Assembly (NCBI RefSeq): GCF_001261735.1
Contig: NZ_CVRP01000001.1
Location: 186,001-250,000, forward strand
DNA: 64,000 nucleotides
Direction of reading: 5' to 3'
From: Dysgonomonas sp. BGC7
GTDB taxonomy: Bacteria; Bacteroidota; Bacteroidia; Bacteroidales; Dysgonomonadaceae
The first letter of the stretch is position 1. Every line of letters begins with the position of its first letter. Made by a program: the position numbers and the translations under genes. Shown one piece after another: positions 15,180-38,410 of the stretch. The notes below the pieces were generated by a model that ran no database searches, had not been told where the DNA came from, and worked only from the letters and a program-made list of their open reading frames with translations.

Positions 15180-17822
15180 ATGAATATGAAATTTCAAGAA
15201 AATTTAAAGAATGAATTGGATAAATTTTTATCAATTCAGGAGAATAGATTCCCCAAGGAAGATATACTTAAGATAGACCTTCATTGCCACGATTATAATA
15301 GCGATGTTCCGGATGAACTGATAGGACGTATTTTGCGTGTCCCTGAAACATGGCTTTCGAGTGAACGTCTACTACAAGAATTGGAGAAAAACGGATGTGA
15401 CGCTTTAACTATAACAAATCACAATAATGCACGTTCGTGCTATATATTACAAGACAAAGGGGTTGATGTGCTCACTGCTGCAGAATTTAGTTGCTGGGTA
15501 CCGGACTTTGAAATAGGAATACATGTTTTAACTTATGGTTTTACTCCCGATCAGGAAGTACAACTAAACAAATTGAGGAAAAATGTTTACCTCTTTTTGC
15601 AATATACTCGCATACATAATATTCCCACAGTTTGGGCACACCCCCTTTACCATTATTCTGTAAAGAAAATGCCCCCAAAAGATTTCTTTGATAAGATGAT
15701 GTTGATATTCGAACGATTTGAAACACTCAACGGACAGAGAGATACATGGCAGAATATGTTAGTGAAAGAATGGATAGATCAAGTAGATGAAGAACAAGTT
15801 GCAAAATATTCGAAAGAATTTGGGATAGATCCCTCAATATATTGCGTCGATCCATATAAAAAGAGTTTGACTGGAGGTTCTGATAGTCATATGGGGATAT
15901 TTGCAGGGATGACAGGGTCTTATCTCTATGTGCCTGATCTCAAGAGCAGGATGCAAACCGTATCTAAATCGGAACTGGTACTAGAAGCCTTGCGCAATGG
16001 TAATATTGCTCCCTTCGGTGCACATCAGAATACTGAGAAACTGACTATTGCATTTCTCAATTATGTTTGTCAAATAGCCCTCAATTATAAAGATCCAGGG
16101 CTTATACGCATGCTTTTGCATAAAGGAGATATGTCGGATAAGGTCGTTTCATTCATGGCTTCCAATATGTTTAGTGAGGTGCAAAAACATAAAGTGACAA
16201 TGTCTTTCATCAGGTTATTCTATAATTGTATGATGGGAGAGAAGCCCTCTTTTTTCAAAAAACTGCTCCTTCCATCACATTATAAACCAATATTCGAAGA
16301 GGCTGTGAAAATAGCAGAAATAGGGAAAGGGACAACTGATAAAGATGTGGTAGACGGATATTATAACTCGATACTGACTATCAATAACCAATTGAATGAT
16401 TTGTTGGCTAATCGCTTAGATAAGAAGATAACTAATTTGCATCTAGATGATAAAATTGGAGAGAAATCGTTAGACTCTATTATCGAGAGCTTAGAACTTC
16501 CGATAAGCATTCGTTCATATATAGATAAGAGTAATAATAACTCTTCTATCGATATTTCTAAATTTTTGGATGGTCTCTCATTCCCGTTTTTTGCTTCAGT
16601 ATTTATTCTAGCTGCACACTTTACCAGCGCAAAGACAATGTTTCATACTCGTCCTTTTTTACGACGATTTTCTGAACAATTGAAGAAATTTGAACAGCCT
16701 AAAAGAATCCTTTGGCTAACTGATACATTCGGAGATAAGAATGGAGTGTCTATGTTTCTGCACGAAATGCATGAGCAAATAAAAATAAAAGGACTTTCTA
16801 TAGATATTCTTACATGTAGTAACGAAGTTGTGCCTGACGATAATCTGATTGTATTAAAGCCTATTGGAGAATTTACAACACCTATCTATAAAGATCAAAA
16901 AATTAATATCCCCAATTTTGTAGAATTACATAATCTCTTTCTTAAGGGAGAATATGATCGTATCATATGTTCTACTGAAGGTATTATGGGGATGTGCGGA
17001 CTGTATCTGAAACATGCCTATACCGTAGAGGCTAATTTTTATATGCATACAGACTGGCTAATGTTTGCCCGTAAGGCATTGGGAATAACAGGGCATAATC
17101 TGGACAGGGTACGTCGTATGCTTCGCTTCTTTTACAGATCATTTGACAGGGTATTGGTACTCAACTCAGATCAGAAGAAGTGGCTTACCGGATCGGATAT
17201 GAATCTTGAGGATCAGAAAGTCTTTCAGACTGCTCATTGGAGCAATAGTTGCTTTACTGTTCAGCCATCGGATAAGTCTTCTTTGTTCGGGGTAGAGACT
17301 AATACGCCAATCTTGCTCTATGTGGGAAGAATAAGCAAGGAGAAAGGAGTCTTAGAACTTGCTCCAATTTATAAACGGGTCAAAGAAGTACATAAAGATG
17401 TACGAATTGTAATAGTAGGAAAGGGGCCGGCATTGCAACAGTTGCAACAGGATATTCCTGATGGAATATTCATCGATTGGGTTCATCAGTCTAAGCTACC
17501 GGCCATATACTCTTCTGCCGATGTCCTTTTATTACCTTCCAAATTTGATACTTTCTGCAATGTTGTACTAGAATCGTTGAGTTGTGGGTTACCTGTGATA
17601 GCATATAATAAGAAAGGGCCTAAAGATATTATTGTGGATAATGAATGTGGTTATCTGGTAAATTCAATATCTGAAATGACGGAGAAAACAATAGAGTATT
17701 TGTCTTCGGATCTTAATGAAACGTTTAGATCAGCTGCAACAAAACGAGCAAAAGATTATGATGCCGATACTATAATAAAAGAGTTGTTACAATCTGTTGG
17801 TGCAGGAGATGAGCAGCAATAA
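15180..17822 (+). CDS. PHP-domain / GT4 glycosyltransferase fusion protein
   Basis: 880 residues with two unrelated halves. Residues about 30-300 form a PHP metal-dependent phosphoesterase-like domain with its ligand motifs in order: DLHCHD (H35, H37), TNHNN, AEFSC, WAHPLYH and GGSDSHMG. Residues about 510-870 form a GT-B glycosyltransferase of family 4 type: WLTDTFGDKNGVS at the first Rossmann fold, LLYVGRISKEKG at the second, and DTFCNVVLESLSCGLPVIA at the nucleotide-sugar site (Asp replacing the usual first Glu of EX7E). The roughly 200-residue middle is helical and unassigned. No signal peptide, so cytoplasmic. The gene overlaps the following GH13 gene by 14 bases. It is likely a biosynthetic or retailoring enzyme for a glycolipid or disaccharide; the product is unknown. 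Confidence 0.85.
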   Translation: MNMKFQENLKNELDKFLSIQENRFPKEDILKIDLHCHDYNSDVPDELIGRILRVPETWLSSERLLQELEKNGCDALTITNHNNARSCYILQDKGVDVLTAAEFSCWVPDFEIGIHVLTYGFTPDQEVQLNKLRKNVYLFLQYTRIHNIPTVWAHPLYHYSVKKMPPKDFFDKMMLIFERFETLNGQRDTWQNMLVKEWIDQVDEEQVAKYSKEFGIDPSIYCVDPYKKSLTGGSDSHMGIFAGMTGSYLYVPDLKSRMQTVSKSELVLEALRNGNIAPFGAHQNTEKLTIAFLNYVCQIALNYKDPGLIRMLLHKGDMSDKVVSFMASNMFSEVQKHKVTMSFIRLFYNCMMGEKPSFFKKLLLPSHYKPIFEEAVKIAEIGKGTTDKDVVDGYYNSILTINNQLNDLLANRLDKKITNLHLDDKIGEKSLDSIIESLELPISIRSYIDKSNNNSSIDISKFLDGLSFPFFASVFILAAHFTSAKTMFHTRPFLRRFSEQLKKFEQPKRILWLTDTFGDKNGVSMFLHEMHEQIKIKGLSIDILTCSNEVVPDDNLIVLKPIGEFTTPIYKDQKINIPNFVELHNLFLKGEYDRIICSTEGIMGMCGLYLKHAYTVEANFYMHTDWLMFARKALGITGHNLDRVRRMLRFFYRSFDRVLVLNSDQKKWLTGSDMNLEDQKVFQTAHWSNSCFTVQPSDKSSLFGVETNTPILLYVGRISKEKGVLELAPIYKRVKEVHKDVRIVIVGKGPALQQLQQDIPDGIFIDWVHQSKLPAIYSSADVLLLPSKFDTFCNVVLESLSCGLPVIAYNKKGPKDIIVDNECGYLVNSISEMTEKTIEYLSSDLNETFRSAATKRAKDYDADTIIKELLQSVGAGDEQQ

Positions 17823-19459: not shown

Positions 19460-20032
19460 CTAGAGTAAGAATAAAAGGAATAGTATTGGAATAAGTATTC
19501 CTATTCCAAATTCGATACCTCCACGTCCCCAGAAACCTTTTGGCCCTTTTAACATAATTATTCCTGTAACAGTTATTATAAGCAACGATATGGCAAATAT
19601 ATCAGAGAACCATGTCCACCAGCGATTGGGGTTCATATGTAGTCGATTGAAAGTATTCAGTATAGGACGTTTCTGTAGTTTTTCATAAATAGCATTCCCT
19701 GTATTCATATTCACATCGAGAGAAGAGCCGCCTTTGAGGAAGACTTTCATTTTTTGTTCTTCGTAGTAGTAATGCTTGGCATAAGCATTTTGTTCGTCAA
19801 TTTGTTTTAGTAAACTATTAACTGCCTGTTCATTTATGTTTGGAGCCATCGGGAACTTACCGGATAAGGTAAGTTCCTGACGAGAAATGCTGTAACTGGG
19901 ATTGAAATCGCGTTTGTGATTCAGTGCAATACCGGATATCGCATATATAACAATTATACCGGAAAAGAAGAACGAAAGATCGCGATGGATAGTTCTACTC
20001 CATTTACGGATTTTAGCTCCAATTTTTTTCAC
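19460..20032 (-). CDS. PepSY-associated transmembrane protein
   Basis: About 190 residues. An N-terminal TM helix follows RTIHRDLSFFFSG, a periplasmic PepSY-like region follows (about 45-125), then two helices begin around RWWTWFSDIFAISLL and GIEFGIGILIPILF. His residues at RTIHRDL, ALNHKRD and RLHMNPN lie near membrane edges, the pattern of PepSY_TM proteins often linked to iron or flavin/heme redox functions. The start is best at GTG 20032 (MKKIGAKIRKW), 7 bases after the upstream stop; a longer frame to an ATG at 20134 would overlap the previous gene by 95 bases and add a non-conserved-looking leader. Last gene of the minus-strand operon, convergent with the GH13 gene. Confidence 0.75.
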   Translation of the reverse strand: MKKIGAKIRKWSRTIHRDLSFFFSGIIVIYAISGIALNHKRDFNPSYSISRQELTLSGKFPMAPNINEQAVNSLLKQIDEQNAYAKHYYYEEQKMKVFLKGGSSLDVNMNTGNAIYEKLQKRPILNTFNRLHMNPNRWWTWFSDIFAISLLIITVTGIIMLKGPKGFWGRGGIEFGIGILIPILFLLFLL

Positions 20033-20039
20033 TTCTATA

Positions 20040-20558
20040 TTATTTTTTGTCAGTAGTATATTCGGATACTTCGAGAGTAAACTGGCTCCAATAGTTACGT
20101 CCGTGTTTTTCTCTGTTCTCACGCATAGCGTCATATATCTGAGATATTTGCTGTTTCAGTTGCGCAACTGCGGCTGGATTACCATTAGGCCCTTTCAGGC
20201 TTTCGTCAAGTTTTGTTTCCCAATCTACAAGAAAAAGACTGTCTACTCTTTTTTCGTGCAATATGCCTTTTACCGTTAGATTATTGAATTTTAGTTCAGA
20301 ATTGAATGCCGAAAGCTGTTTGTTTGCAATAGCCTGTATAGCTTTTGTCGAATCACTGCCTTGCAATACAATCCAATCTCCTCCCTGGCACATATCGGCA
20401 CAGAAACCGGATACAGAAAGAGTATCGCCTACTATATCGTAAGCTGCTTCGGTGAGTTCATCTACAGTATATACTTTTTCTGTTGTTTCAGAAGTGTTTT
20501 GTTTACAAGAATAGAAGGCAATAAATAGAGTTGCCAATAGTACATTAAATACTTTCAT
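20040..20558 (-). CDS. Small lipoprotein with an OB-fold-like segment; function unknown
   Basis: 172 residues with a lipobox (FYSC, Cys18). Residues about 40-110 (DTLSVSGFCADMC, DWIVLQGSDS, LTVKGILHEKRV) look like a small beta-barrel/OB-type domain with two Cys separated by three residues. The C-terminal 60 residues are helical and charged. I do not recognise the family. It lies between the PorV/PorQ-like barrel and the PepSY membrane protein, 7 bases ahead of the latter, suggesting a joint envelope role. The paired cysteines could bind a metal or form a disulfide; this is speculative. Confidence 0.7.
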   Translation of the reverse strand: MKVFNVLLATLFIAFYSCKQNTSETTEKVYTVDELTEAAYDIVGDTLSVSGFCADMCQGGDWIVLQGSDSTKAIQAIANKQLSAFNSELKFNNLTVKGILHEKRVDSLFLVDWETKLDESLKGPNGNPAAVAQLKQQISQIYDAMRENREKHGRNYWSQFTLEVSEYTTDKK

Positions 20559-20577
20559 AATTATAATATTAATAGAT

Positions 20578-21516
20578 TTATATTCCTACTTTTAATCCTA
20601 ACATATACATATTTTCCAAATCTTTACGAAGAGCTATCTTCGATCCGAAGCTAAAATCAAATATTTTGTATTTAACCCCGAATCCGGCAGAGAAGAAATC
20701 GTCATTGTCGCCGGAATGGGCTCCTATACGAAGAGAGTACTTTTTGAAGAATGAATAATCGAATCCAATGCTAATAAAAGAGGTTGATTTATTGTCTGCT
20801 ACCGGAAGAAAAACTCCCCCGTCTAAAAAAGTTTCTATTGTCTGATTACTTGCTGTTGGAATCATAATGGATCCTCCTAATCTTACATTTGGTGACAAGA
20901 AATCAGTTTTGCTTTTATAAGAATATTTTCCAAGATTACCGGCTGAGATACCTACCGAATAAGTTACATCTTTGTTGAAGAGATTACCGTTGCCATTATA
21001 ATAAGAACCAAGATCTACCCGATAAGCCCAAATAGAAGCTACAGTTTTTTCTTTTACATAGCCTACTGTCGAATAGAAAGAAAAAGCTTCGTTAAGTTTG
21101 TATGCATAGCCCAGATCGATAGTATATGAGTAAAAACTGATTTTGCCAAGTGTGCTGTTTTCTTCCATGTCGTTATTGAGCCAATTGTCGAAAGAGCCCA
21201 TCGACAAGTAGCGCCCTCCCACAAAAAAAGCGCTTTTACCATTTCGGTATGCTGTAGTCAATGTATGTAATAGATATGTATTTTCACTTTCGGAAGGAAT
21301 GATTCCTAGCGAATAATCTACTGCTTTAGAGGTTGAATAAAAGAGTGCTGTCGGATTATTGTATATAAATGCATTGTCTATATTTCCCATCTTAGAGTTT
21401 CCCAAACTCAAAGATTTAGGAGAAGAGGGTGACTCTGTCACAGGTAGTATTCTACTTTGGGCTTCTGCCTTAAAGAAAGCTACTATAGCAAATAATAGTA
21501 ATATATAAATTCTCAT
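20578..21516 (-). CDS. PorV/PorQ-family outer-membrane beta-barrel protein
   Basis: 312 residues. Signal peptide to about AEAQ, then LSLGNSKMGNIDNAFIYNNPTALF. The early asparagine- and proline-containing NPTAL segment after a short lead is characteristic of the PorV/PorQ (FadL-like, UPF0164) proteins of type IX secretion systems. The rest is alternating beta-strand (YSLGIIP, FFVGGRYLSMGSF, YTIDLGYAYKLNEAFSFYSTVGYV) and ends in LGLKVGI. By family such proteins shuttle type IX cargo or attach it at the surface. It lies directly downstream (13 bases) of a protease with a Por-type C-terminal tail, which fits a dedicated partner. No core type IX secretion genes are in this window. Confidence 0.8.
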   Translation of the reverse strand: MRIYILLLFAIVAFFKAEAQSRILPVTESPSSPKSLSLGNSKMGNIDNAFIYNNPTALFYSTSKAVDYSLGIIPSESENTYLLHTLTTAYRNGKSAFFVGGRYLSMGSFDNWLNNDMEENSTLGKISFYSYTIDLGYAYKLNEAFSFYSTVGYVKEKTVASIWAYRVDLGSYYNGNGNLFNKDVTYSVGISAGNLGKYSYKSKTDFLSPNVRLGGSIMIPTASNQTIETFLDGGVFLPVADNKSTSFISIGFDYSFFKKYSLRIGAHSGDNDDFFSAGFGVKYKIFDFSFGSKIALRKDLENMYMLGLKVGI

Positions 21517-21529
21517 TTCTTTTCTTTAT

Positions 21530-24331
21530 TTATTCTTTTACAAAAGATTCTTTATATGTTTTGCCGTTGTTTATTATGCTTAGTTCGTATTTTCCGGGGA
21601 AAAGAGAACCCACATTCACGAGTAAAGTGCGTTTCTGAGAATCAATACTATTAGTGTTGTATGTTTTCTCTAATGCCAGTTTGCCCATAATGTTTCGTAT
21701 TCTTAATTGGATATCTCCATTAATAATATCTCCCAGCTTCACATACACGGTTTGTGATACAGATGTCGGATATAAACTATAGATACCTTCGTTTTGATAT
21801 ATAAATATTGGTAAAGTCAATTCTGATTTTTGGTTATGCTTGTCTGTAACAGAAAAAGACAGCTCCGTTTCTCCAATTTTCTTAGGGGTAATAGTCAGTT
21901 GATCGTTGAGGAGAGATACTCTGGCATTCTCATTCTTTAAAACACCAAGAGAGAATATTAACGAACTCTTGTCTTCATCTTCGATGAGATTTCTTAAAGA
22001 AATTGTTTTAGGACTGTCGATATGTACATTGATAGAACTGATACTATTTACGAGTCTCGGAGGGTTATCATTTTCTATTTTTACATTTAATTTTGCAGAT
22101 GAAGAAGCTCCGTATTCATCATTAACAGTCAACTGAATAGTATGGGTTCCGGAAGCAAACTTATTAGCGAAAATTCGGATTCTAATGGTGTTCCCTGATT
22201 GTTCGGTAAAGAGTTGTTCTTTATAAGTTATGTTATAAGTCCATGCATGATTTTCTTTATCGTTTATTTCGAAAATAATCTCTTGTACATCGTTTCCAGC
22301 CAAGACAATGGTATTATTCAGGTCGACACTGGACGATATTGCTGGAGGGGTATTTGTAAGAGTCGATATTCCTCCTTGGTATATTACCAGATTTGAAGAA
22401 TTTCCATTTCTGGAGAAGGCCTGAATTGCAAAATAATATGTTTTTCCACTTTTTAAGCTCTTTAGGCTTCTTTTCAATATATCATTCGGACTTGTGAAAC
22501 TTGCAGTCACTTCAATTTGACTAACATCTGTATTTAGATAATTAGAGCTTGTTATTTCTTTATCAGAAAAGTATAAAATATAGCTTTGTATAGAACCATC
22601 ATTACTCTCTGATGTAGATTTCCATGCTAATGATATTGAGCTGTAACTCCGTTCAGTCTGATCCGGAATAAAGGCCGGGTTGGCAGGTACAATATTATTA
22701 TCGTAGTCGGATAGAGCAATTTGAGCGTCTATATAGCCTCTACCCAATTTATTGTGGTATTTTTCAGTATTATAATTATTTGGATTTATCTTTTTTACTC
22801 CGGTAAGGAGTCTTTGTCTTAACTCGCTTACAGTAAAATTATCTCCTCCATATTTTGATACAATTAATGCTGCTATTCCCGATACATGAGGACAAGCCAT
22901 GGATGTTCCTTGCATATATCCATATCTGCTTTGCCCATTTTTGGAAACGATAGTGCTATAAATTCCGGAAGTCATTTCTCCTCCTTCGTAAGGATATTTT
23001 TGTCCTATTTTTTGGGTTCCTCCCGGAGCAGCTATATCAACCCAGTCACCATAGTTTGTATACCATGTTGCTGAAAAATCGGGAGCATAAGCTGCAACAG
23101 AAACAACATCTGCTTCGGCAGCAGGATATGCCTTAAATTCTGTATAATCATTAGATGCTGCAAAAACTACTAAGCCTCCTTTCATCTGTGAGTTTGTACT
23201 TCCTCCAGCATGTTTCGTAAAATAAGCAATGGCTTCTTTTACTACTTGCGGCGTAGATATACCAATATCATATCCCCACGAATTTTGGCTTATTACAGCG
23301 CCATTATTTGCCCCGTAGACAATCGCTGCTGCGGTTTGGTTGGTTGTTGTAGATATATTGCTGGACGAATCTGGATCGTTAGGATCATAGTTAGGATTTG
23401 TCATAAACATTTGGCAACTCATAAGCCTTACTCCCGAATTTGCAGAACCATCCCCCCCTGCTATACCGCAAATACCTTTTCCATTATTATTTTTAGCAGC
23501 AATAACTCCTGCTACGTGTGTTCCGTGATCGTGAGGTTCGATTATTCCTGTTCCATTTACAAAGTTGTACCCGTATACATCGTCTATAAAACCATTATTG
23601 TCATCGTCTATTCCGTTACCGGGGATCTCTCCTTTATTTATCCACAAATTGTCTATCAGATCTTCGTGGTAAATATCTATTCCTCCGTCAACAACTGCTA
23701 CTATAACATTGGGATTGCCACTTTCTTCAGCCCACGCTGGTAATATATTAATATCTGCTCCTGTTATAGAGCTAATTATAACTTCACTGCCTATCTGATA
23801 ATTACCTACTTTTCCTTCATTATACATATTCCATTGTCTGGAAAAGCCCGGATCGTTGAAGGAGATTTGAGATAAACTTTTAGTAGAAGGATTTTGAACC
23901 GCAGAAACTGTATAGTCTCCAATTACGGGATGATATACCGGCTCTACAAAATCGAAAATGCTGGCAGACACTGAAGATTTTACATTCGTTTTAGATTCGT
24001 TATACCATACTGTATACCACGCATTAAGACCTTCAGATATCTGTAGATCTTCTGATTTTCCCGCATATGGAAATATTCTTTGCATCTTATATGCTCCGAT
24101 AGAATTTAAGTATTCGTCTAGTTGAGGATTGCCCGTAGGGATTGCCAATTCGCCAGCCTTATTATCAATTGTTTTTATAATTTGGCTTTGTAGCTTGACA
24201 GACTGCATACCCGGAATAGAACTAGGTTCTTCTGTCGTGGTTGTATCTTGATTTCCAATATCGGAAAAATTATCATCCTGACATGAAACTAACAATAGAC
24301 CAAGGATGATATATAGAAAATATTTTCTCAT
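21530..24331 (-). CDS. Subtilisin-like S8 serine protease with FnIII, cadherin-like and Por-type C-terminal sorting domains
   Basis: About 933 residues from MRKYFLYI, with lipobox LLLVSC. Peptidase S8 catalytic triad (numbered from this start): D215 in AVVDGGIDIYHEDL, H269 in HDHGTHVAGVIAA, S477 in GTSMACPHVSGIAAL; the oxyanion Asn region is SQNSWGYD. A helical N-terminal region (about 40-200) resembles an inhibitory propeptide. Residues about 560-660 look like fibronectin type III, 665-850 like Ig/cadherin-type repeats, and the last 80 (LYPTSVSQTVYV..., MGKLALEKTY..., LFPGKYELSI) match the type IX Por secretion tail. The usual upstream start at 24358 adds nine residues and is possible. Expected at the cell surface, degrading protein and supplying peptides or released cofactor to the receptor encoded upstream. 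Confidence 0.9.
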   Translation of the reverse strand: MRKYFLYIILGLLLVSCQDDNFSDIGNQDTTTTEEPSSIPGMQSVKLQSQIIKTIDNKAGELAIPTGNPQLDEYLNSIGAYKMQRIFPYAGKSEDLQISEGLNAWYTVWYNESKTNVKSSVSASIFDFVEPVYHPVIGDYTVSAVQNPSTKSLSQISFNDPGFSRQWNMYNEGKVGNYQIGSEVIISSITGADINILPAWAEESGNPNVIVAVVDGGIDIYHEDLIDNLWINKGEIPGNGIDDDNNGFIDDVYGYNFVNGTGIIEPHDHGTHVAGVIAAKNNNGKGICGIAGGDGSANSGVRLMSCQMFMTNPNYDPNDPDSSSNISTTTNQTAAAIVYGANNGAVISQNSWGYDIGISTPQVVKEAIAYFTKHAGGSTNSQMKGGLVVFAASNDYTEFKAYPAAEADVVSVAAYAPDFSATWYTNYGDWVDIAAPGGTQKIGQKYPYEGGEMTSGIYSTIVSKNGQSRYGYMQGTSMACPHVSGIAALIVSKYGGDNFTVSELRQRLLTGVKKINPNNYNTEKYHNKLGRGYIDAQIALSDYDNNIVPANPAFIPDQTERSYSSISLAWKSTSESNDGSIQSYILYFSDKEITSSNYLNTDVSQIEVTASFTSPNDILKRSLKSLKSGKTYYFAIQAFSRNGNSSNLVIYQGGISTLTNTPPAISSSVDLNNTIVLAGNDVQEIIFEINDKENHAWTYNITYKEQLFTEQSGNTIRIRIFANKFASGTHTIQLTVNDEYGASSSAKLNVKIENDNPPRLVNSISSINVHIDSPKTISLRNLIEDEDKSSLIFSLGVLKNENARVSLLNDQLTITPKKIGETELSFSVTDKHNQKSELTLPIFIYQNEGIYSLYPTSVSQTVYVKLGDIINGDIQLRIRNIMGKLALEKTYNTNSIDSQKRTLLVNVGSLFPGKYELSIINNGKTYKESFVKE

Positions 24332-24364
24332 AATGTATGTTATATAAGAGTGGTTCATACTTTT

Positions 24365-26056
24365 TTAAAATATATAAAAGAGGTTCAGATTTAGCCTTAA
24401 AGATTCTCTATCCGGCTCTGCGAACTGAGATAAAGAAGTGATATAAGGGGCTTTTGTGCGTTGCCCGTACAAAAAGGATATTCTGCTACCAATTTTATTT
24501 TTTTGATTCACTGAATGAGAGTAGGTGATCTCTGATGAAAATGTATTATTATCTTCTCCTCTGATAAGGTATGGGATATACGCCTGCTGAATAATTGTTT
24601 CTTTATCTACAGCAGGTAAGTCGAATACATTGTCTATGGCTCGTTTAGCAGAAAATCCTAGATTTATTTCGAGACTGTTTTTGTTGAAGATGCTATTATA
24701 GCCTATTCCTATGGATGGTGTAATAGATTGATTACAGATTCTTCTGTGGGGAGAAATATACTTTTCTTCATAATAGTCGTAATTTATTCTCCCTAGGAAA
24801 TGTAGAGAACGAATAGGCGAAAGATTATAAATAGCCTTAAACTGTGCAGAATTGGAATATGAGTTTTGACTGTACAGTTTATTTGATCCTACTTTCACGT
24901 AATCTTTTAGAGATGAATTATTCTCGGATGAACTTACTTTTTCATAAACATGCTCTGTTCCTTTTCTGATGTTATTATTACCTGTTAGCAACAAAAAGAA
25001 AAGGAAGTCTTTGTGTCTTTTAGAGAGAATAAGGTTGGGACTGAAGTGATGAGTCGTAGAGGAAAATAGGTTTTTGTATGCTCTACTTGTCAATGAACTT
25101 GTCCCCATGAGATCCTCAGTGTTCATACTCCTATAATTATATACAAAGTTGAATGTGTAATTTATAGAATTATCATTCGTAGAGAGCCGTTTGTAAGTAA
25201 TGTCTGCACCTATTCCGTTAATAGTCATGAGTTTCTTATAGGCATTGTCTATTGTACTTTCTTTTCGGTTCCATTCGCCGAATCCATAATAAAGAAAATA
25301 GCTAGCAGCCTTTTGTGTATAATTATTAGCATCTATATTTTGTCGGTTCAGCTCCGGATATATTTTGACCGAGTAAAGATTGTTTTTTATTATTTTAGCT
25401 ATTCCAAAATCCAACCTTAACCACGAGTTGTACACAGATAAGCGTGGATCGGTTACTTTTGACGATGAAATACCTGTATAGGTACCTCCCAAACCGTAGT
25501 AATATCCTTTATGTTTGAAACTGAAACCTCCACTTATCTCATACTTCTCATTGTTTATATCTCCTACACCAAGAGTGTCTCCAACCAGATATGGGTAATA
25601 ATCCGAAGGGTTAGTCGCATAATTGGAATAGATATTTTTTTTACGTCCCGAAGAAAAAGAGGCTGAGCCGTAAAGAGTACCCAGACCGTCAATTATCTTT
25701 TCGCCTCCGGCTAGTACTGAGCCTTCGAATTGTTTGTTACCATCATAAAAGACATAGTCTCCATTTGTTTTGTCGAACGATGCTGAACCCAAAAGGATTG
25801 CTGATGGTCTCATTCGCTTTATCTGATAACTATTTAGTGTACTGTCGGCGTTATTATAATATAAGTCGATAAATGCCGGATTTCGTCTGAGGATATATAT
25901 ATAATTATTTTCTATATCGAATATTTGTGAAGATACATCTTCGTAAGTCGATACCTTTTTTTCAAACTTGTTCAACTGATAACTGAGGTCGCTTTGTGAC
26001 TTACACAACAGTGATACAAACAATAAAACCAGAACAATATAATTTTTCTTATTCAT
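24365..26056 (-). CDS. DUF6850-like outer-membrane beta-barrel protein
   Basis: 563 residues; Sec signal peptide ending near CKSQS. The remainder is a dense series of amphipathic beta-strands with aromatic girdles (GSASFDKTNGDYVFYDG, ISGGFSFKHKGYYYGLGGTY, LRLNLNLFYIF) and a terminal Phe, typical of an outer-membrane barrel. I assign it from memory to the DUF6850 family found next to DUF4876 and TonB receptor genes. No enzymatic motif. Its start overlaps the end of the TonB receptor gene by 4 bases, so the two are probably translationally coupled. Confidence 0.72.
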   Translation of the reverse strand: MNKKNYIVLVLLFVSLLCKSQSDLSYQLNKFEKKVSTYEDVSSQIFDIENNYIYILRRNPAFIDLYYNNADSTLNSYQIKRMRPSAILLGSASFDKTNGDYVFYDGNKQFEGSVLAGGEKIIDGLGTLYGSASFSSGRKKNIYSNYATNPSDYYPYLVGDTLGVGDINNEKYEISGGFSFKHKGYYYGLGGTYTGISSSKVTDPRLSVYNSWLRLDFGIAKIIKNNLYSVKIYPELNRQNIDANNYTQKAASYFLYYGFGEWNRKESTIDNAYKKLMTINGIGADITYKRLSTNDNSINYTFNFVYNYRSMNTEDLMGTSSLTSRAYKNLFSSTTHHFSPNLILSKRHKDFLFFLLLTGNNNIRKGTEHVYEKVSSSENNSSLKDYVKVGSNKLYSQNSYSNSAQFKAIYNLSPIRSLHFLGRINYDYYEEKYISPHRRICNQSITPSIGIGYNSIFNKNSLEINLGFSAKRAIDNVFDLPAVDKETIIQQAYIPYLIRGEDNNTFSSEITYSHSVNQKNKIGSRISFLYGQRTKAPYITSLSQFAEPDRESLRLNLNLFYIF

Positions 26057-28824
26057 AGATTAATGATTAGTTCTGTACCAAAAAATGGAGAATGCCAGTC
26101 TCTCTCGGTTCTTTGAAAATTAGTTTTATATGTAGGACTGATTTCTAGTATATTGTTGGCAAAAAAAGAAAGTTTAACCGAGCGATTAAATTCTTTAGTC
26201 AGCTTCAGGTTTATCAACATCGAAACAGGTCGTTTATTTTTTTCATATCTAGCATCGTTAAAAACTCTTTTCATTGCTCTTAACTGAGAGTCGTTGTCCA
26301 CTTCTTGTGGAGTAATATTTATAATGTTTCCATTCAAATCCATGTATTTACTTGGATAAGGATCTACATCGCGTCCTAACTGTGAAGACTCGAACCAAAC
26401 CAACTGAATAAAATTTGTAAATATCAATTTCAGTTTAGGCAGGTGGGTATTTATCCATACATTTGTATTGAAGCGATCTGAGTATGTTTTTTCGTAACCA
26501 TCATATATCCCAATATAAGGGTAAAATCCGTTAGCATCTATTCCCCTTGGACGTTCCATCCCTGGTACTCCACTTGTATATAGTGTTTTGTAATAGGCCC
26601 CGTTTATTTCAATGTCTGATTTTATAATATCTATCTTAGGTATGCTAATCCGGTATTCAAGACCTTTTTTTATAATCTTGGCACTGTTGACAAGGTTGCT
26701 ACTGATTATATAATCAGATATTTGTTTAGATTCGAAATCATCTATGTTTGGTTTTTCGGTAATAGGAGGGTTTTTCGGTTTTTCACCATCATACTTTGTA
26801 TAAGATATGGCTGTATATCCCGGATAATATTCTATGCCTCCTTTCATTTTCTCTCTGAATAATGTAAGTGAAAATATATATTTGTCATATTTTATATCCC
26901 AGCCCAGTTCTATTTTCTTGTTTTGATTCTCCCTTATGCCCGAATTGGATGGATCATGTACCGTTGAATAAACGTAGGCTGTTCTTAATTCAGATGTATT
27001 GCTGTAATAATTTAATGCGACAAAATCTTTATACACTTTATCCGGATATAAAAAATCTAATGACGGAAGCTTATTTTCAATACCAAATCCGAACCGGATG
27101 GTGTTAGAAAGCATGCGCTCTTCCTTTATTTTATTCCGCAGAGTGTAGGAAAACTGTATTCTGGGTTCAAGCAATAGTAATCCATTCAAGGCATAATCCT
27201 TAGGCAGGTTTAGCACCTGTGTACCTCTTAGCCCGATAGATGTATTTAGCTCGTTTTTCCCTTTTTGGTAGCGAAGCTTTGTTTCTATGTAAGATGCACT
27301 GTTTACAAGAGCAGGTATGTCTGAGTTTGCACGAGGTCTGGTATAAGCATCTGAAGGGAATGGTGGTCTGAAAAGATCAACAACTACTCCTCGTCCGTGA
27401 TTTTTGACATGGCTCAACGAAGTTCCTGCCAGTACCGAATAATTCAAATTTTCAACAATTAGGCCTTGCTTTGTTCCGCTTATTGAGCTGAAAATATTCA
27501 GAGGTTTATTTTCTATCTTATAACTTGTTCTGTACAAATCGGGCAGATATATGGCTTCATTTATTCCTTCTTGTGTTGCTGTTGATGAGATTGTAACTGT
27601 AGTAAGCGAAACCTTTTTGTCGTGATTCAGAATATCCTTTGAATAGTCGGCAGATATAAGCACTTCCAATTCGTCGATTATCGGGTAGTCAAGCGATGCT
27701 ATTATTTTGGAAGATGCAGTATATCTTTTATATGTTGTCTTATAGTGCTCTGTATTTTCTTCGGTCAATTCATCCTTCTTTGTATTACTAAAAGACGAGA
27801 CAAGGCTACCTCTTAGGTTAAAGTCTATTTTCTTTCCAAATAGATAAAACAAATTATTGTAGTTTGCCTGAGCTGTAATTCTGTTATATGCGTCTTTCGT
27901 ACTTCTGAGGTCGCTGGCCGACTTTGTTATATCTATTCCTGTATGTAAGGTTCCCAGTTTTTCGGATAAGAAGAATCCTTTTCCCACATAAGCTAATTTA
28001 TTCAATGGGTCTATTTTTGCTCTGATTCTGAGAGGTGTTTTCCCTTTTTTAGATGATACCTTAATAGAACCACTGCTCAGATTACCCTCTTTTGCTGAAG
28101 CTATACCTTTCGTTACAGTTACACTCTCGATATGGTCTGTTGATATTGTTCGCAGATCGACACCTGTATTCAGAGAAGAAACTTTGCCATACGGGTCAGT
28201 AGACGATTGACCGGTATATCCTCCCATTTGCATACGTATTCCGTCGTTTTGCATAGGCATTCCATCTACAGATACTCCCATGCCAAAGGATGTGCTTTGG
28301 TCGCTGCCTGCTTGTCGGGACGATGTAAGCGAACGATTTTGGATATTGTTGCTGCCGATTGTACCACCCGGTAATAGAAGGAAGATATCTTTTATGGATG
28401 TCGGTTGAATGTATTCTAGCGCCTCTTGCCCTATTTTTGCATCGCTTCCCATATTCTCTGAATATTTAGCTGTAACAGAAAACTCTTCCAACTCGATGCT
28501 CAGTGGCATTAAAAGAATCTCAATTTGGGATGGATTCTTTTTTATAGTAATATTTTGGGTTGCATACCCTAAGCTACTGAATCTTATTCTCAAATTATCT
28601 CTGTATGTTGCAGAAAAAGAAAAGAATCCGTCAGCATCGGTTATTGTTCCTTTCTCTATATCGGGCATATATATATTTGCAAAAGGAATGGGCATCTTGG
28701 TAGAATTATCTAATATCCGTCCTTTAATCTGGTATGTAGAACCACCGTTCTGTGCTATAATACCGAAGGCGCAAAATGCAGAAAAAAAGAATACAAGGAA
28801 TAATCGCCGGATTGTTATATCCAT
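26053..28824 (-). CDS. TonB-dependent outer-membrane receptor (non-SusC type)
   Basis: 923 residues. Signal peptide to about FGIIAQ, then a carboxypeptidase-regulatory-like domain (about 30-115: YQIKGRILDNSTKMPIPFANIY, TDADGFFSFSA, LGYATQNITI), a plug domain (about 130-260: SIKDIFLLLPGG, VSVDGMPMQNDG, ESVTVTKGIASAKEGNLSSG) and a barrel ending GTELIINL. There is no partner SusD, so this is not a SusCD transporter. By family it imports iron complexes, heme, vitamins or peptides with TonB energy. The gene neighbours (surface protease, PepSY protein, DUF4876 lipoprotein) suggest a protein-derived ligand or metal/heme; the ligand is unknown. Confidence 0.9.
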   Translation of the reverse strand: MDITIRRLFLVFFFSAFCAFGIIAQNGGSTYQIKGRILDNSTKMPIPFANIYMPDIEKGTITDADGFFSFSATYRDNLRIRFSSLGYATQNITIKKNPSQIEILLMPLSIELEEFSVTAKYSENMGSDAKIGQEALEYIQPTSIKDIFLLLPGGTIGSNNIQNRSLTSSRQAGSDQSTSFGMGVSVDGMPMQNDGIRMQMGGYTGQSSTDPYGKVSSLNTGVDLRTISTDHIESVTVTKGIASAKEGNLSSGSIKVSSKKGKTPLRIRAKIDPLNKLAYVGKGFFLSEKLGTLHTGIDITKSASDLRSTKDAYNRITAQANYNNLFYLFGKKIDFNLRGSLVSSFSNTKKDELTEENTEHYKTTYKRYTASSKIIASLDYPIIDELEVLISADYSKDILNHDKKVSLTTVTISSTATQEGINEAIYLPDLYRTSYKIENKPLNIFSSISGTKQGLIVENLNYSVLAGTSLSHVKNHGRGVVVDLFRPPFPSDAYTRPRANSDIPALVNSASYIETKLRYQKGKNELNTSIGLRGTQVLNLPKDYALNGLLLLEPRIQFSYTLRNKIKEERMLSNTIRFGFGIENKLPSLDFLYPDKVYKDFVALNYYSNTSELRTAYVYSTVHDPSNSGIRENQNKKIELGWDIKYDKYIFSLTLFREKMKGGIEYYPGYTAISYTKYDGEKPKNPPITEKPNIDDFESKQISDYIISSNLVNSAKIIKKGLEYRISIPKIDIIKSDIEINGAYYKTLYTSGVPGMERPRGIDANGFYPYIGIYDGYEKTYSDRFNTNVWINTHLPKLKLIFTNFIQLVWFESSQLGRDVDPYPSKYMDLNGNIINITPQEVDNDSQLRAMKRVFNDARYEKNKRPVSMLINLKLTKEFNRSVKLSFFANNILEISPTYKTNFQRTERDWHSPFFGTELIINL

Positions 28825-28843
28825 ATTGTATATTCAGCAAGAT

Positions 28844-28876
28844 AGGAGATACACTGAACAAAGCAATGTATCTCCT
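28844..28876. other. Hairpin between the DUF4876 gene and the TonB receptor gene
   Basis: A perfect 10-bp inverted repeat (AGGAGATACA / TGTATCTCCT) with a 13-base loop lies between the stop of the DUF4876 gene and the start of the receptor gene on the minus strand. No long U-tract follows in the minus direction, so it may be an attenuator or RNA-processing or stabilising element within the operon and not a full terminator. Confidence 0.5.
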
Positions 28877-28900
28877 TTTACTTATTTATTTTGTGAGGAA

Positions 28901-30079
28901 TTATTTTTTAGGGTAGCTTTTTTGACCTCCGATATTTAGAATGAAGTCCTTAGCACTGTCATTAGTGTCTTGTACGATATTATTACCTTTGTCGTCTATT
29001 ATTGGTGTTCTTTGAACAAACTGTTCGTTGAATCCTCCATAGAATGCATCATTTATACGGATAGAACTTCTGTCTACAATAAGAGGGAGTACTTTTCCAT
29101 AAAACTCGTCAGCGCATCCTGTTTCTACTGCATCAATAATATATTTAGTCGGTAGTTTTACGAAATCTTGATTCATTATTCCCATCGATGCCGGATTTGG
29201 TAGGTTCACTTTATTATTTTCAAGGAATGTTGCAGCATCTTCTTCAAGTCGGAACAAGATCATAGGTGCAGCACCTGAATATTGCCAATGGAACGCCTGA
29301 AATACAGAGTAGTTTACTATCACGTTAGGAACATCCGGATTGTCTGCGGTCATCCCTCCTTCTACATAAATTTCAAGATCGGCTCCTGAAAGGTCCAGAC
29401 TCTTTGGCTTGCTTCCGCTTTCGTTATGGTTGATAGCAGAGAAAGCTATAACAAGGCTTTTGTTTGGCTCTATTTTATATGTTCTTCCATCTCCGGGGAT
29501 TGTATAAAACTGGCTGATAATTACATTGTCGGGCAGATATTTAGACATGTCGTCTCCTATTTCCAATGCATTATAATCACCTGCCACTCCAAATGAAAGT
29601 CCATCGGCATATAATGCTCTGTCGCTGATATTACGTATTGTGAAATATTGTTCGTAGTAGGTATAATTCCAACTACCGTTCTTGGCACCATTGAAATATA
29701 ATTCGTCGAGGACAAATGTTTTTTCCAAAGTGTTCATTAGAGGCTCTACCTTTATCGATAGTGTAGCTTGAGATCCACTTAGAGTATAGTTTTCTACACT
29801 TGCATACATAATGCTGGCTCCATCGATTAGATCCTCTACTGTAATTTCGTATGTACCCATAGGCAGTTCAAAAACAGAAGTTCCACTTGCATTAGATTTT
29901 CCAGTAGATTTTGTTCCGGTTCTAGACTCTGTAATAGATATTTGAAATATAGAGTAATCTTTGATTGTTTCGTCACTTGTTATTTTAATCGTTAACTGAC
30001 TCAAAACTTCATTATTATCATCACTGCTACAAGATACCAGTAACAATGCAAATAATAGGATGTGAATTGCTTTCTTCAT
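28901..30079 (-). CDS. DUF4876-family surface lipoprotein
   Basis: 392 residues from MKKAIHILLFA, lipobox LLVSC. Residues about 25-115 form a carboxypeptidase-regulatory/Ig-like sandwich (SDETIKDYSIFQISITES, GTSVFELPMGTYEITVED). Residues about 120-390 match what I recall as DUF4876, with a lamin-tail-like core (LDELYFNGAKNG, YYEQYFTIRNISDRALYADGL). The family occurs with TonB receptors and a partner barrel in Bacteroidota, so this may be the ligand-capturing lid or partner lipoprotein, by analogy with SusD; inference. An upstream extension to 30181 lacks a signal peptide and was not used. First gene of the seven-gene minus-strand operon. Confidence 0.8.
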   Translation of the reverse strand: MKKAIHILLFALLLVSCSSDDNNEVLSQLTIKITSDETIKDYSIFQISITESRTGTKSTGKSNASGTSVFELPMGTYEITVEDLIDGASIMYASVENYTLSGSQATLSIKVEPLMNTLEKTFVLDELYFNGAKNGSWNYTYYEQYFTIRNISDRALYADGLSFGVAGDYNALEIGDDMSKYLPDNVIISQFYTIPGDGRTYKIEPNKSLVIAFSAINHNESGSKPKSLDLSGADLEIYVEGGMTADNPDVPNVIVNYSVFQAFHWQYSGAAPMILFRLEEDAATFLENNKVNLPNPASMGIMNQDFVKLPTKYIIDAVETGCADEFYGKVLPLIVDRSSIRINDAFYGGFNEQFVQRTPIIDDKGNNIVQDTNDSAKDFILNIGGQKSYPKK

Positions 30080-30445
30080 TTTTAAATAATATTTATGAAA
30101 ATTAGTTGTCGTAATTTTATGCAAAGGAAAAAGTTTATAGGCGGGGGCACAATACCTAAAAATAATGATTTTGGAGGCCATCTTTTGTTAAGTCTCCCAA
30201 TAAATAATTAATTTGAACCATTATATTTGTTTGATACTTTTTATAGATGAAGGAAAAAAGGCTATATTTTGTATATAGTCAAAAATGATGAAAGCCGTCT
30301 ATAATTAGAAGAGTTTTGTAAAAGAATATAAGCAGAGAATATAGTGTTTTTTATAGTGTTACGTCTCTGTTTATCAGTTTTGTATAAAATAAATCAGACT
30401 ATATTAAGAATATAGCCTGATTATTAATTTCGATAAGTTTATCTT
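30080..30445. other. 366-base intergenic region between gap and the DUF4876 operon
   Basis: Contains the gap terminator (30392-30422) at one end and the upstream region of the DUF4876 gene at the other. A GC-rich patch (GGCGGGGGCACAATACC, near 30137) stands out in otherwise AT-rich sequence. I see no gene and no clear promoter consensus. Confidence 0.55.
30392..30422 (-). terminator. Terminator after gap
   Basis: On the minus strand, AATCAGGCTATATT (30422-30409) pairs with AATATAGTCTGATT (30405-30392), 14 positions with one G-U wobble and a 3-base loop. It is followed by TATTTTATAC. It starts 24 bases after the gap stop codon. Confidence 0.8.
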
Positions 30446-33016: not shown

Positions 33017-33637
33017 ATGGGGCAAAAAACATTCGACGATGATCAAGACATAATTGGTCTTCGGACAGGAGATGAACTCTATTTCGAAAAAGTATATAAA
33101 AAATATTTTGCAGGGTTGACTGCCTTCGCTTCACAATATATTTCTCTCGAGGATGCTAAAAGTATTGTTCAGGAAACAATGCTTTGGCTATGGGAAAACA
33201 GAACCTCGTTAAATCCTAATTTGTCTTTGAAATCGCTGTTGTTTACTATTGTAAAGAATAAATCTCTGAACAAAATAACTCATATCGAAACCAAAAGCAG
33301 AGTATTACAGATTATAGAAGAAAAATATCAGGAACAGCTAAGCGACCCCGACTTCTATTTAGAAAAAGAGCTTATAGGTTTGTATGAGCAAGCACTGGAA
33401 AAACTTCCTCAAGAATTTCGTAAAGCTTTTGAGATGAATCGGCTTGACGGCTTTACTCACAAAGAAATAGCAGATAAATTGGGAGTCTCGCCTCAAACAA
33501 TTAACTATCGTATCGGACAAGCATTGAAAATTCTTAGAAAAGAATTGAGGGATTATTTGCCTCTGTTCATTATTTGTATTTCAGCAAGCGATAATCCTTA
33601 CATTGAACACTTATTCGATTCTTTGTTTTTAAACTAA
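33017..33637 (+). CDS. ECF RNA polymerase sigma factor of PUL2
   Basis: 206 residues. Region 2 at about 20-90 (FEKVYKKYFAGLTAFASQYI, AKSIVQETMLWLWENR) and region 4 at about 130-185 (LPQEFRKAFEMNRLDGFTHKEIADKLGVSPQTINYR contains the helix-turn-helix). This is the Bacteroidota RpoE-like type that works with FecR-like anti-sigma factors to induce SusCD loci. It is followed 243 bases later by the anti-sigma gene, then susC with an STN signalling domain, the classic trans-envelope cascade. The short hydrophobic C-terminal tail (LPLFIICIS) is common in this group. Confidence 0.95.
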   Translation: MGQKTFDDDQDIIGLRTGDELYFEKVYKKYFAGLTAFASQYISLEDAKSIVQETMLWLWENRTSLNPNLSLKSLLFTIVKNKSLNKITHIETKSRVLQIIEEKYQEQLSDPDFYLEKELIGLYEQALEKLPQEFRKAFEMNRLDGFTHKEIADKLGVSPQTINYRIGQALKILRKELRDYLPLFIICISASDNPYIEHLFDSLFLN

Positions 33638-33880
33638 AGTGAATTGTAGTCATTATAATAGCTGTGTATCTTTTCAATATACTTCCCTTCTAATCATTAA
33701 TATGGACTATAGAATTATATGACCTTAGAAATCATGTTTGTGATTTCTAAAGTTGCTACAGTATTTCTTTATAAAAATACTGTGCTTTATCGAGAGACTT
33801 TAAAATATTTAAAAAAAAAGACAAAACTGTTTAGTATGTTTCTTTTTTGAATTGTATCAATTACAAAGAGGTTAAGAAAA

Positions 33881-34882
33881 ATGGATCAAAAAATAGATAA
33901 TCAAATATTAATATCATATCTGAACAATCAGCTAGATGCATCTCAATCCGAAGAAGTAGAAGCATGGTATTGGGCATCCAGAAAAAATCAGAATCTTCTG
34001 GAACAATTATATTATACTCTCTTCATTGGAGAACGCTTGTATGCCATGAACCAGATTGATGTGGAAGCCTCTTTCAAAGAGCTGCAAAAACAAATTAAGA
34101 GTAGAAGGCCTAAGCCTTATATGAGGATTCTGAAATATAGTGGACGCATAGCCGTTGCAGCAGCACTTGTGGGTCTTCTGTTTATGGCCGGATTATTTAT
34201 AAAAGAAATGCACGATACTTTATCGCAGCCCTTTGTTGTTGTTACAGACTTAGGAGAACGCACACATACTATTTTACCCGACGGAAGTAAGGTTTGGGTT
34301 GCTGCGTATAGTAAAGTAGAATACTACAATCCTTATCCTTTTTCGAAAGAAAGAAGGGTGAAACTGGAAGGCGAAGCATATTTTGAAGTAAAGAAAGATG
34401 AATCTCATCCGTTTATAGTCAATAGTGGAAATCAGTCAACAAGAGTTTTAGGTACTAAATTTAATATTCGGGCTAATAAAGGTGACCGATATATGGTTAC
34501 AACTCTTATTGAAGGACGCATACAGCTAACTTCTCCTTTATTAGCAGAAGAAGGGGTGTATATGAAACCCAACCAACAATTCAGAATAGATACTCAAACA
34601 GGGAAATCTGAACTTTATGATTGTTCATATGCCGAAGAGTTTGTCAGTTGGATAGATGGTTCTTTACATTTCAGGCAAACGACGTTAGCTGAAATTGCTT
34701 TAGATCTGGAGCGGTATTATAATGTAGAAATAATTATAACAACCGATAAACTGAAAGAAGAACGTTTTACGTGTGATTTTGAAACATCTGATAATATTTA
34801 TCAAATATTTTCTATTCTCAAGTTAACCAATAAGTTCAATTATAAGATAGAAAACAGACGGGTTACCATTTTTGAAAATTAA
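33881..34882 (+). CDS. FecR-family anti-sigma factor
   Basis: 333 residues. Cytoplasmic N-terminal segment (about 1-85), one TM helix (about 88-107, IAVAAALVGLLFMAGLF), a periplasmic FecR domain (about 118-215: TDLGERTHTILPDGSKVWV, KLEGEAYFEVKKD) and a C-terminal DUF4974/STN-binding-type domain (about 260-332: GSLHFRQTTLAEIALDLERYYNVEI). It would hold the sigma factor at the membrane until the STN domain of the substrate-loaded SusC signals through its periplasmic part. The position between sigma factor and STN-SusC supports this. The upstream gap of 243 bases is AT-rich with no gene seen. Confidence 0.95.
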   Translation: MDQKIDNQILISYLNNQLDASQSEEVEAWYWASRKNQNLLEQLYYTLFIGERLYAMNQIDVEASFKELQKQIKSRRPKPYMRILKYSGRIAVAAALVGLLFMAGLFIKEMHDTLSQPFVVVTDLGERTHTILPDGSKVWVAAYSKVEYYNPYPFSKERRVKLEGEAYFEVKKDESHPFIVNSGNQSTRVLGTKFNIRANKGDRYMVTTLIEGRIQLTSPLLAEEGVYMKPNQQFRIDTQTGKSELYDCSYAEEFVSWIDGSLHFRQTTLAEIALDLERYYNVEIIITTDKLKEERFTCDFETSDNIYQIFSILKLTNKFNYKIENRRVTIFEN

Positions 34883-35056
34883 AGTGGTTGTGTTGCCCCA
34901 TATTTAGTTTATGTAAAAGCTTACCTCGAAATAATAAAAACAATCCATTAAAAACCAATTGTATGAAACATTGAATTTCTACTCTAATGCTGTACACAAA
35001 AAAGAGACAGCAAATTCCTTTATTCTAAACTATTATTTATTAAAGTATTGAATTAA

Positions 35057-38000: not shown

Positions 38001-38410
38001 TGGTATCTAATACACAAGCTCTTCTTGATTATTATGGAGTATCTAAAACGACAGCTGATGCTCGTGATGCCGGAGGTGCTTTGGTTAACGGTTACCGTAT
38101 TCCTGCTAAAGATTACTATCAAACAATTGGTGCACCTAATGGTGGAGCTGCTTCTATGTATACATATAGTGCAACTAACGTACGATTGGGAGAACTTACT
38201 TTGGGCTATGATGTGCCTGTCAGCAAATGGACAAATGTTATTAAGGGATTGAATGTGTCGTTTATCGGTCGAAACTTATTCTTCTTGTATAGAAAAGCAC
38301 CTTACGATCCGGAAGTAACAGCCAGTACAGGAACATATTTCCAAGGGATAGACTATTTTATGCAGCCAAGCCTTCGCAATCTTGGATTTTCTGTTAAACT
38401 TCAATTCTAA
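35057..38410 (+). CDS. susC: SusC-family TonB-dependent transporter with STN signalling domain
   Basis: 1117 residues. Signal peptide to about VFAQ (44). STN domain at about 47-120 (ARVNLNFKDTPVTDILQEI, NVLKQILSPLDLTY), which contacts the anti-sigma factor. Carboxypeptidase-regulatory-like domain at about 134-205 (VTGTVIDASGEPLIGVSVKV). Plug from about 210 (DEVVVTALGI, SLSGKIAGV, GSNNALYVIDGVPMFN). The remainder is the barrel, ending GFSVKLQF. It imports oligosaccharides across the outer membrane and reports their presence to the sigma/anti-sigma pair encoded just upstream. Three near ATGs (35057, 35060, 35069) could start it. Paralogue of the partial SusC at the window start. Confidence 0.97.
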   Translation: MMKTMEKPTDKIAVCCSKASKCLRGRLFLLLLVLSGLTTSVFAQTARVNLNFKDTPVTDILQEIKKQTQLSIVYNVNDLDLAKSISINVQNEEVGNVLKQILSPLDLTYSFKDNHIILAKREKGKDVKADIPVTVTGTVIDASGEPLIGVSVKVQGTTHGTVTDIDGKFSLKASVGNRLEFSYVGYTTQNIRVADANPLKITMAENTHLMDEVVVTALGIKKEAKSLSYNVQQISASEVTKVPDANFINSLSGKIAGVTINSASSGVGSASRVVMRGTKSISGSNNALYVIDGVPMFNVERGEITDRFSGAGQSGDALANINPDDIESISVLSGASAAALYGSAAANGVVMVTTKKGQEGKTSINFSNSTTFSEALVLPDFQNTYGTSSAGDFYSWGDKSATPYSYSPKDFFQTGYSLTNSLNLSTGTDKNQTYVSVGNMMAEGIIRNNDYNRINFTFRNTTKFLNDKLILDLQYTLSNIKEENMVAQGEYHNPIVPVYLFPAGEDFQKVKAFERYDASRNFPVQYWDYDDGMGLQNPYWVTDRELFQNKKNRHMTTASLKYELTKGINLSGRFKLDQSNEKSEKKFNASTNNLFASKTGYYSLDNVTSRQMYGEALLNIDRYFLEDKLNLIANIGASIDDIRFDRDLYGGKLAKVPNMFSYSNVARSTAEAIQTGYIKQKQSVFASMQLGYKSMAYLDVTARNDWPSTLANTNNSSFFYPSVGLSGIITEMFKIDTWVMPYMKLRVSYSEVGNEPLYHITIPTYLVADGTPYTQTRLHNPYLNPERTKAWEIGANFGLFKNKLKVDATLYKSSTYNQIFDVPLAATSGYTSIFLNAGKIDNRGIELSARYGDKIGKFSWSTYLTYSLNQNKIVKLIDENTKNPVNGDDITLPSFDMAGTGNYRISLKEGGSMGDIYVSSIRTDEHGVIYVDPLSNKVVAESNKFIYAGNAAPKYNLGWGGDFGWNGISLSFLVSARVGGVVVSNTQALLDYYGVSKTTADARDAGGALVNGYRIPAKDYYQTIGAPNGGAASMYTYSATNVRLGELTLGYDVPVSKWTNVIKGLNVSFIGRNLFFLYRKAPYDPEVTASTGTYFQGIDYFMQPSLRNLGFSVKLQF

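Follow-up and report, generated by a model that had tools for sequence, protein, structure and literature searches.

In the present study, we analysed a seven-gene operon on the minus strand (30079 to 19460) of a 64,000-nucleotide (nt) stretch of Dysgonomonas sp. BGC7, the whole of which is called the window here. With a probability of about one half, we consider it to be an iron-scavenging operon equipped with a surface protease and on when iron is short, of which we infer the cargo and the regulation. As judged from the sequences, the seven genes are not one ancient set, and the operon appears as a join of two conserved blocks. The first, by gene content, is the TonB receptor-DUF4876-DUF6850 core with a small lipoprotein and a PepSY protein, and the second is a predicted lipidated S8 protease with a type IX-type tail together with its PorV-like barrel. 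On our analysis the operon would be a member of a Xus-like iron importer family plus a type IX-like protease module. If this is true, type IX-type protease display and TonB iron uptake would be united in one transcript, and a function would be given to DUF6850 and to DUF4876, which is among the strongly iron-induced genes in the available parts of published transcriptomes. It would also suggest a testable reason for the existence of PorV-like paralogues and provide the Bacteroidota iron response with a candidate operator.

Results

In transcript order the genes encode a DUF4876 lipoprotein, a TonB receptor, a DUF6850 barrel, an S8 protease, a PorV/PorQ-family barrel, a small Cys-pair lipoprotein and a PepSY protein, and the gaps between them are 76, -4, 6, 13, 19 and 7 nt. 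A preliminary description of this DNA had given the same order with short gaps and one 4-base overlap, which was confirmed by gene calls and family scans. From this spacing, the seven genes are expected to form one transcript. The features are given below; the operator coordinates were derived arithmetically from its distance to the DUF4876 start.

30151..30170, minus strand: candidate operator AATCATTATTTTTAGGTATT, one half good and the other half poor, 91 nt ahead of the DUF4876 start
28901..30079, minus strand: DUF4876 lipoprotein (PF16215, 80 bits; start MKKAIH at 30079)
26053..28824, minus strand: TonB-dependent receptor (CarbopepD_reg_2 and Plug; below the SusC/RagA cut-off)
24365..26056, minus strand: DUF6850 protein, predicted outer-membrane barrel (PF21012, E 1e-39); its gene overlaps the receptor gene by 4 nt
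21530..24358, minus strand: S8 protease lipoprotein (Peptidase_S8_N, Ig/fn3-like domains; likely start 24331)
21533..21775, minus strand: type IX-type C-terminal domain of the S8 protease
20578..21516, minus strand: PorV/PorQ-family barrel
20040..20558, minus strand: small lipoprotein, with C-A-D-M-C in place of the CxHxCxH frequent in relatives
19460..20032, minus strand: PepSY_TM_like_2 inner-membrane protein (PF16357; GTG start)

An alternative longer DUF4876 open reading frame starting at 30181 would include the operator site. For the PepSY gene, the GTG at 20032 is the most likely start, over an ATG at 20134 that overlaps the neighbouring gene. The DUF4876 protein is similar to PDB 4q1z, a 'putative lipoprotein' (E 4e-10).

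In family searches, DUF6850 was present in 22 of 61 genomes (own genome included), in 86 of 393 genomes within the order (73 of them above the curated cut-off) and in 47 of 394 across the phylum (37 above it). For the comparison of neighbours, 140 loci were cut out as a selected subset of the hits, mostly better-scoring ones, some being picked for lipoprotein or barrel hits and without DUF6850; 20 further order-level hits and others, e.g. in G665, G690, G714 and G626, lie outside this sample. Genes called in these loci and in the window included 127 for DUF6850, each taken together with the neighbours on its strand and counted as one row per gene, with the double locus L184 counted twice and near-identical loci kept separate. 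DUF4876 was found in 124 and a TonB receptor in 121 of these operons, some of the remaining loci being truncated by contig ends. The order TonB-DUF4876-DUF6850 is present in 108 loci, and the DUF4876-first order (DUF4876-TonB-DUF6850) in one, the window, where all three core genes are adjacent. No other of the 127 operons holds the S8-PorV pair inside the operon, L152 having it beside the locus, and so the seven genes cannot be regarded as one conserved set; when neighbours were compared across Bacteroidota, the full set was not conserved together but the two sub-blocks were. The own genome holds three DUF6850 loci, namely the one in the window, L068 with a C25-like gene and L069 with an ABC set. 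Outer-membrane barrels frequently end in Phe, and a C-terminal Phe is present in 84 of 125 complete DUF6850 homologues. In a quick tree, built without one short row (L100), the window DUF6850 forms a long branch (1.7) in a 36-row clade (SH-aLRT 99), 17 rows of which have ABC partners. The small lipoprotein matched no family above cut-off; its relatives often carry CxHxCxH, of which the window copy keeps two cysteines only. The PepSY protein matched PF16357 (60.2 bits) and PF03929 (31.6 bits), both above cut-off, and its H16-R17 and N38-H39 were invariant in 8 of 8 aligned sequences; the conserved His16 and His39 would fit a haem- or metal-binding reductase. No paper on DUF6850 was found in the literature search, and in the available parts of the literature searched, with subscription journals mostly outside, no description of the operon or of the S8-PorV pair was found.

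The palindrome AATACC-N8-GGTATT was first spotted by eye ahead of several loci and scored afterwards, with spacings of 5-12 allowed for real and shuffled regions. Among 122 non-window upstream regions, 19 came within 0-1 mismatch of it, against about one expected from block shuffles, and the spacing was 8 in 18 of the 19. A position weight matrix (PWM) reached p<=0.01 in 39 of 123 regions upstream of DUF6850 loci, training rows and window included. For the window test the PWM was built from 21 sites of other loci with the window excluded, and the window site (30170-30151) scored 13.1, a value attained by 3 of 1000 randomised upstream regions. The exact form AATACCYA-N4-TRGGTATT was searched in 25 genomes of the genus and had 9 occurrences in 7 genomes. 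These precede the TonB genes of two DUF4876 loci (L306, L313), an L069-type ABC operon (L308), a porin (L309), three other TonB loci (L307, L310 and L312, the first two of which look like the same locus in two species) and a TetR-like gene adjoining an ABC transporter (L314, by eye), and one lies in a phosphoglycerate mutase gap (L311). L224, the own-genome relative of L309, has a one-mismatch site, a porin and a Peptidase_M75 imelysin gene. This palindrome recurs ahead of TonB, porin-imelysin and ABC-DUF4857 genes and, by eye, of TetR-ABC genes, and is a candidate operator of the Bacteroidota iron response; the regulation of this response is called scarcely known in the available part of PMC10434189. 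According to the same part of that source, BT3625-33 of Bacteroides thetaiotaomicron (DUF4857, ABC, PepSY, DUF4876, TonB) are about 37-128-fold up in low iron, PG1019-22 of Porphyromonas gingivalis (DUF4876, TonB, hypothetical) are 21-215-fold up under iron starvation, and the porin/M75 and TetR/ABC loci of B. thetaiotaomicron are likewise iron-induced. Furthermore, the accessible portions of two other reports group P. gingivalis genes with HmuY: a DUF4876 gene that changes in the same direction when hemin conditions are compared (PMC10470040), and PG_1019/1020 in data from a mutant (PMC10101095). The earlier hint at iron or haem is supported.

The other genes of DUF6850 operons vary. An ABC ATPase or DUF4857 is present in 38 of the 127 operons and a peptidase gene also in 38, identities being assigned via scanned cluster representatives. 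The two occur together in just two operons (L135, L145) against about 11 expected if independent (Fisher p 2e-5, uncorrected for kinship). The peptidases are C25-like in 23 operons, M16 in 11, S46 in 7, Met-zincin in 3, M28 in 3 and S8 in one, the window; the C25-like assignment is the least secure, and when these genes are disregarded 17 operons still have a peptidase, namely the 15 of 38 without a C25-like gene together with L134 and L151, where C25-like and other peptidases coexist. On the quick tree of DUF6850 at least nine switches between the ABC and the peptidase state are required, and therefore the partners appear to have been swapped repeatedly, if the tree is about right. In the L069-type loci of the genus, an ABC ATPase, a 223-amino-acid (aa) protein and DUF4857 lie between DUF6850 and the lipoprotein-PepSY pair, and in the window the S8-PorV pair occupies the slot where relatives have these ABC/DUF4857 genes. 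This replacement by a protease and its docking barrel suggests that proteins may be cut at the cell surface to free the import cargo. It could be argued that the S8-PorV pair is a surface-protease unit in its own right, brought into an uptake operon by chance and sharing no more than its transcript. Besides the window and L152, no observed pair lies near a DUF6850 locus, and the in-operon form was seen once; but five other peptidase kinds are present in DUF6850 operons, and in L152, from a distant genome in another family of the same order, the pair stands divergent from the DUF6850 locus, between a PepSY gene and the TonB gene, with a strong operator-like site in the shared gap, 77 nt ahead of the TonB start (0 of 500 randomised). 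We hold a chance neighbourhood to be quite improbable.

Some further cluster genes and sites were observed. A gene of L068 (4756-6960) and 31 cluster members form a HEAT-repeat family with invariant HG and DxC motifs in the N-terminal half, which resemble those of clan CD cysteine peptidases, and Pfam calls Peptidase_C25 in 2 of 22 aligned. A MauG/MbnH-like di-haem cluster gene is present in eight DUF6850 operons (L111, L113, L116, L118, L120, L124, L126, L130), all in genomes outside the order, with the representative in L124 scanned, which hints at a further locus form. YCF48-like propeller cluster genes occur in seventeen (L134, L135, L137-L143, L145, L147, L168, L172, L189, L190, L194, L195), and a type IX tail is present in their L147 representative. 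Sites of the form AATACC-N8-GGTATT are listed at L306-L314, L212, L223 and L224; at L311 (1501-1520) the palindrome is flanked by one gene for an iPGM metalloenzyme and another for a phosphoglycerate mutase-like protein of the histidine-phosphatase type, an arrangement as if metal shortage switched the enzyme used.

The S8 protease (PF00082, E 8e-37) has D215, H269 and S477 (numbered from 24331) invariant in 5 of 5 aligned sequences, which, from the S8 catalytic motifs, we take to be the catalytic triad. Its catalytic domain matches 8ehe_A and its tail fold matches 8qb1. The lipobox Cys is also kept in 5 of 5 aligned, so that the signal peptide is not of the ordinary lipobox-free kind. The protease has a C-terminal sorting domain, as type IX cargo does, and a type IX translocon is present in the own genome (SprA family match of 2767.6 bits at C5). 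The barrel passes the NF033709 PorV/PorQ family cut-off (112.4 vs 90; fold TM 0.80) and lies below the T9SS_OM_PorV equivalog cut-off (52.5 vs 250 bits); the true PorV is perhaps a longer relative in the own genome at C7:559352. A family search over 101 genomes detected the barrel at E<=1e-10 in four, one of them the own genome. An S8 gene adjoins it in each of the remaining three (G006, G030, G122), and the uptake core was not found in the fetched stretches, two of which stop at contig ends. Among 12 genomes picked for barrel hits, all except G354 had a strong S8 match, and by comparison of positions S8 adjoins the barrel in all 11. We then compared the 80 nearest named S8 homologues, taken among the matches listed: the barrel was in the fetched stretch for 15 of the 17 that align over the tail (exceptions L228, L263) and for 3 of the 63 that do not (L233, L241, L293), giving a Fisher p of 1.5e-11. 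One gene separates the two in L248 and L259. The barrel comparison used 14 of the 16 listed barrels plus the window (L233 and L241 left out), and the tail comparison 17 of 20 tails plus the window (L247, L254 and L281 left out). The type IX-type tail of S8 and the PorV-like barrel go together. DUF6850 or DUF4876 was in none of these 80 stretches among the matches listed, records near the own genome being possibly excluded, and no operator site was found at 13 other S8-PorV loci (lowest p 0.083), in several of which S8 is not the first gene.

Upstream of the S8-PorV pair, SusD-family genes were found by Pfam in L248, L269, L276 and L303, with a TonB receptor in view in the first three and a Calx-beta lipoprotein confirmed in L276; two scanned Porphyromonas loci (L227 and L232) have BACON-domain proteins instead. 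These four loci agree with an alternative in which the operon serves to gain peptides as carbon and nitrogen and the receptor imports peptides, as do an amino-acid permease cluster gene and an S46 dipeptidyl-peptidase cluster gene, each in 7 of the 127 DUF6850 operons. The window operon, however, is without SusD, permease and exopeptidase, and it has the lipoprotein/PepSY pair of ABC-type loci and the operator-like site, which makes nutrient proteolysis unlikely here, if still worth keeping in mind. The preliminary proposal of a surface proteolysis-and-uptake system holds insofar as the operon is one for uptake and includes a surface-type protease, given the peptidases in 38 DUF6850 operons and the S8-PorV pairs behind SusD-family genes in four other loci, and fails for the full seven-gene set. 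It is also conceivable that the protease acts on surface proteins, such as the receptor or competing bacteriocins, by processing or pruning them, and not on food or iron-proteins. A cell-tethered protease type with an S8_N domain and a PorV-like partner would suit such a role, but no processed partner is apparent and the peptidase type differs between loci, and we regard it as very unlikely.

Discussion

On our analysis, the closest functional parallel of the operon is Xus-type iron uptake and not glycan uptake. XusABC of B. thetaiotaomicron (BT2063-65), described as iron-induced xenosiderophore uptake in the available parts of PMC13142918 and PMC10434189, has in common a surface lipoprotein, a TonB receptor and a PepSY inner-membrane protein, and this last, XusC, is proposed to reduce ferric iron in the periplasm (PMC13142918, same part). 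Its lipoprotein is a DUF4374 propeller, whereas those of the window match DUF4876 or no family above cut-off, and the window operon adds the DUF6850 barrel, the small lipoprotein and the protease with its PorV-like barrel. BT3625-33 and PG1019-22, equated with the window operon and its related loci through gene names and not sequence, share DUF4876 and the TonB receptor, the former also PepSY, ABC and DUF4857; unlike in the window, neither a protease nor a PorV-like gene is named for them in the accessible part of the source, which assigns them no function. SusCD/RagAB likewise have a TonB receptor, a surface lipoprotein and a degradative enzyme, but the kinship to SusC/SusD drawn in the preliminary description was not borne out, with no SusD-family match among the seven proteins and the receptor at 55 bits against the TIGR04056 cut-off of 368. 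In PorU-PorV, PorZ-PorQ and SprB-SprF, too, a tail-bearing surface protein goes with a FadL-type barrel, and the available parts of PMC9143113 and PMC10202324 report or suggest that cognate barrels anchor the tails or protect them; the window operon differs in its lipidated S8 protease, type A-like tail and own adjacent barrel. Mirolase, the Tannerella forsythia S8 protease with a type IX tail, shares the S8 catalytic domain (8ehe_A) and the tail fold (8qb1).

From gene content, partner exchange, tail-barrel linkage, fold matches and the operator candidate, all obtained by comparison, we propose the following mechanism. Iron shortage would switch the operon on. The conserved TonB receptor, DUF4876 lipoprotein and DUF6850 barrel form, as the comparison shows, the outer-membrane unit, with the small lipoprotein and PepSY completing it. 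The lipidated S8 protease would be displayed on the surface with its tail held on its own PorV-like barrel, and there it would cleave metal- or haem-holding proteins. DUF4876 and DUF6850 may assist the receptor in capturing the freed iron complex or haem, whose import TonB would power. Like XusC in the published proposal, the PepSY protein with its conserved histidines might act as a periplasmic ferric-iron reductase, and metal or electrons might be passed on by the small lipoprotein.

Several observations count against this iron-scavenging reading. The link by which the operon probably serves iron scavenging is a gene-name match to published transcriptomes plus the motif, that is, data of other organisms. 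One half of the window operator site is poor, the reversed control of the exact form has 5 occurrences in 2 genomes against the 9, and a site with p<=0.01 lies ahead of only 3 of 18 HmuY genes, some possibly not first in their operon, and therefore the operator is not universal for iron loci. The small lipoprotein is without the histidines common in its family. Type IX cargo is normally without a lipobox, and its combination with a type IX tail is unusual. In addition, the ligand of the window DUF6850 may have changed, because this protein is divergent.

More broadly, we tentatively put forward, as a joint reading that falls a little short of even odds, that Bacteroidota have a swappable module of a lipidated, type IX-tailed S8 protease and a private PorV-like barrel behind different TonB importers, and that DUF6850 importers fall into two almost mutually exclusive classes, those with ABC/DUF4857 and those with peptidases. 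The hosts of the module would be SusCD-type importers and, in this operon, a DUF4876-DUF6850 iron importer controlled by an operator that responds to iron starvation.

The downstream neighbour of the operon is a convergent alpha-amylase-family gene, and the upstream neighbour is a same-strand GAPDH-like gene (identified by eye), behind which lies a terminator-like stem at 30422-30392, the stem scan as a whole being at chance level. Elsewhere in the window, an extracytoplasmic function sigma factor, a FecR anti-sigma factor and an STN-domain TonB receptor (33017-38410) form a separate regulated uptake locus. An 880-aa protein (15180-17822), adjoining the alpha-amylase-family gene, has a C-terminal glycosyltransferase found by Pfam, which sees only this transferase, and its long N-terminal half is PHP-type phosphoesterase-like by eye.

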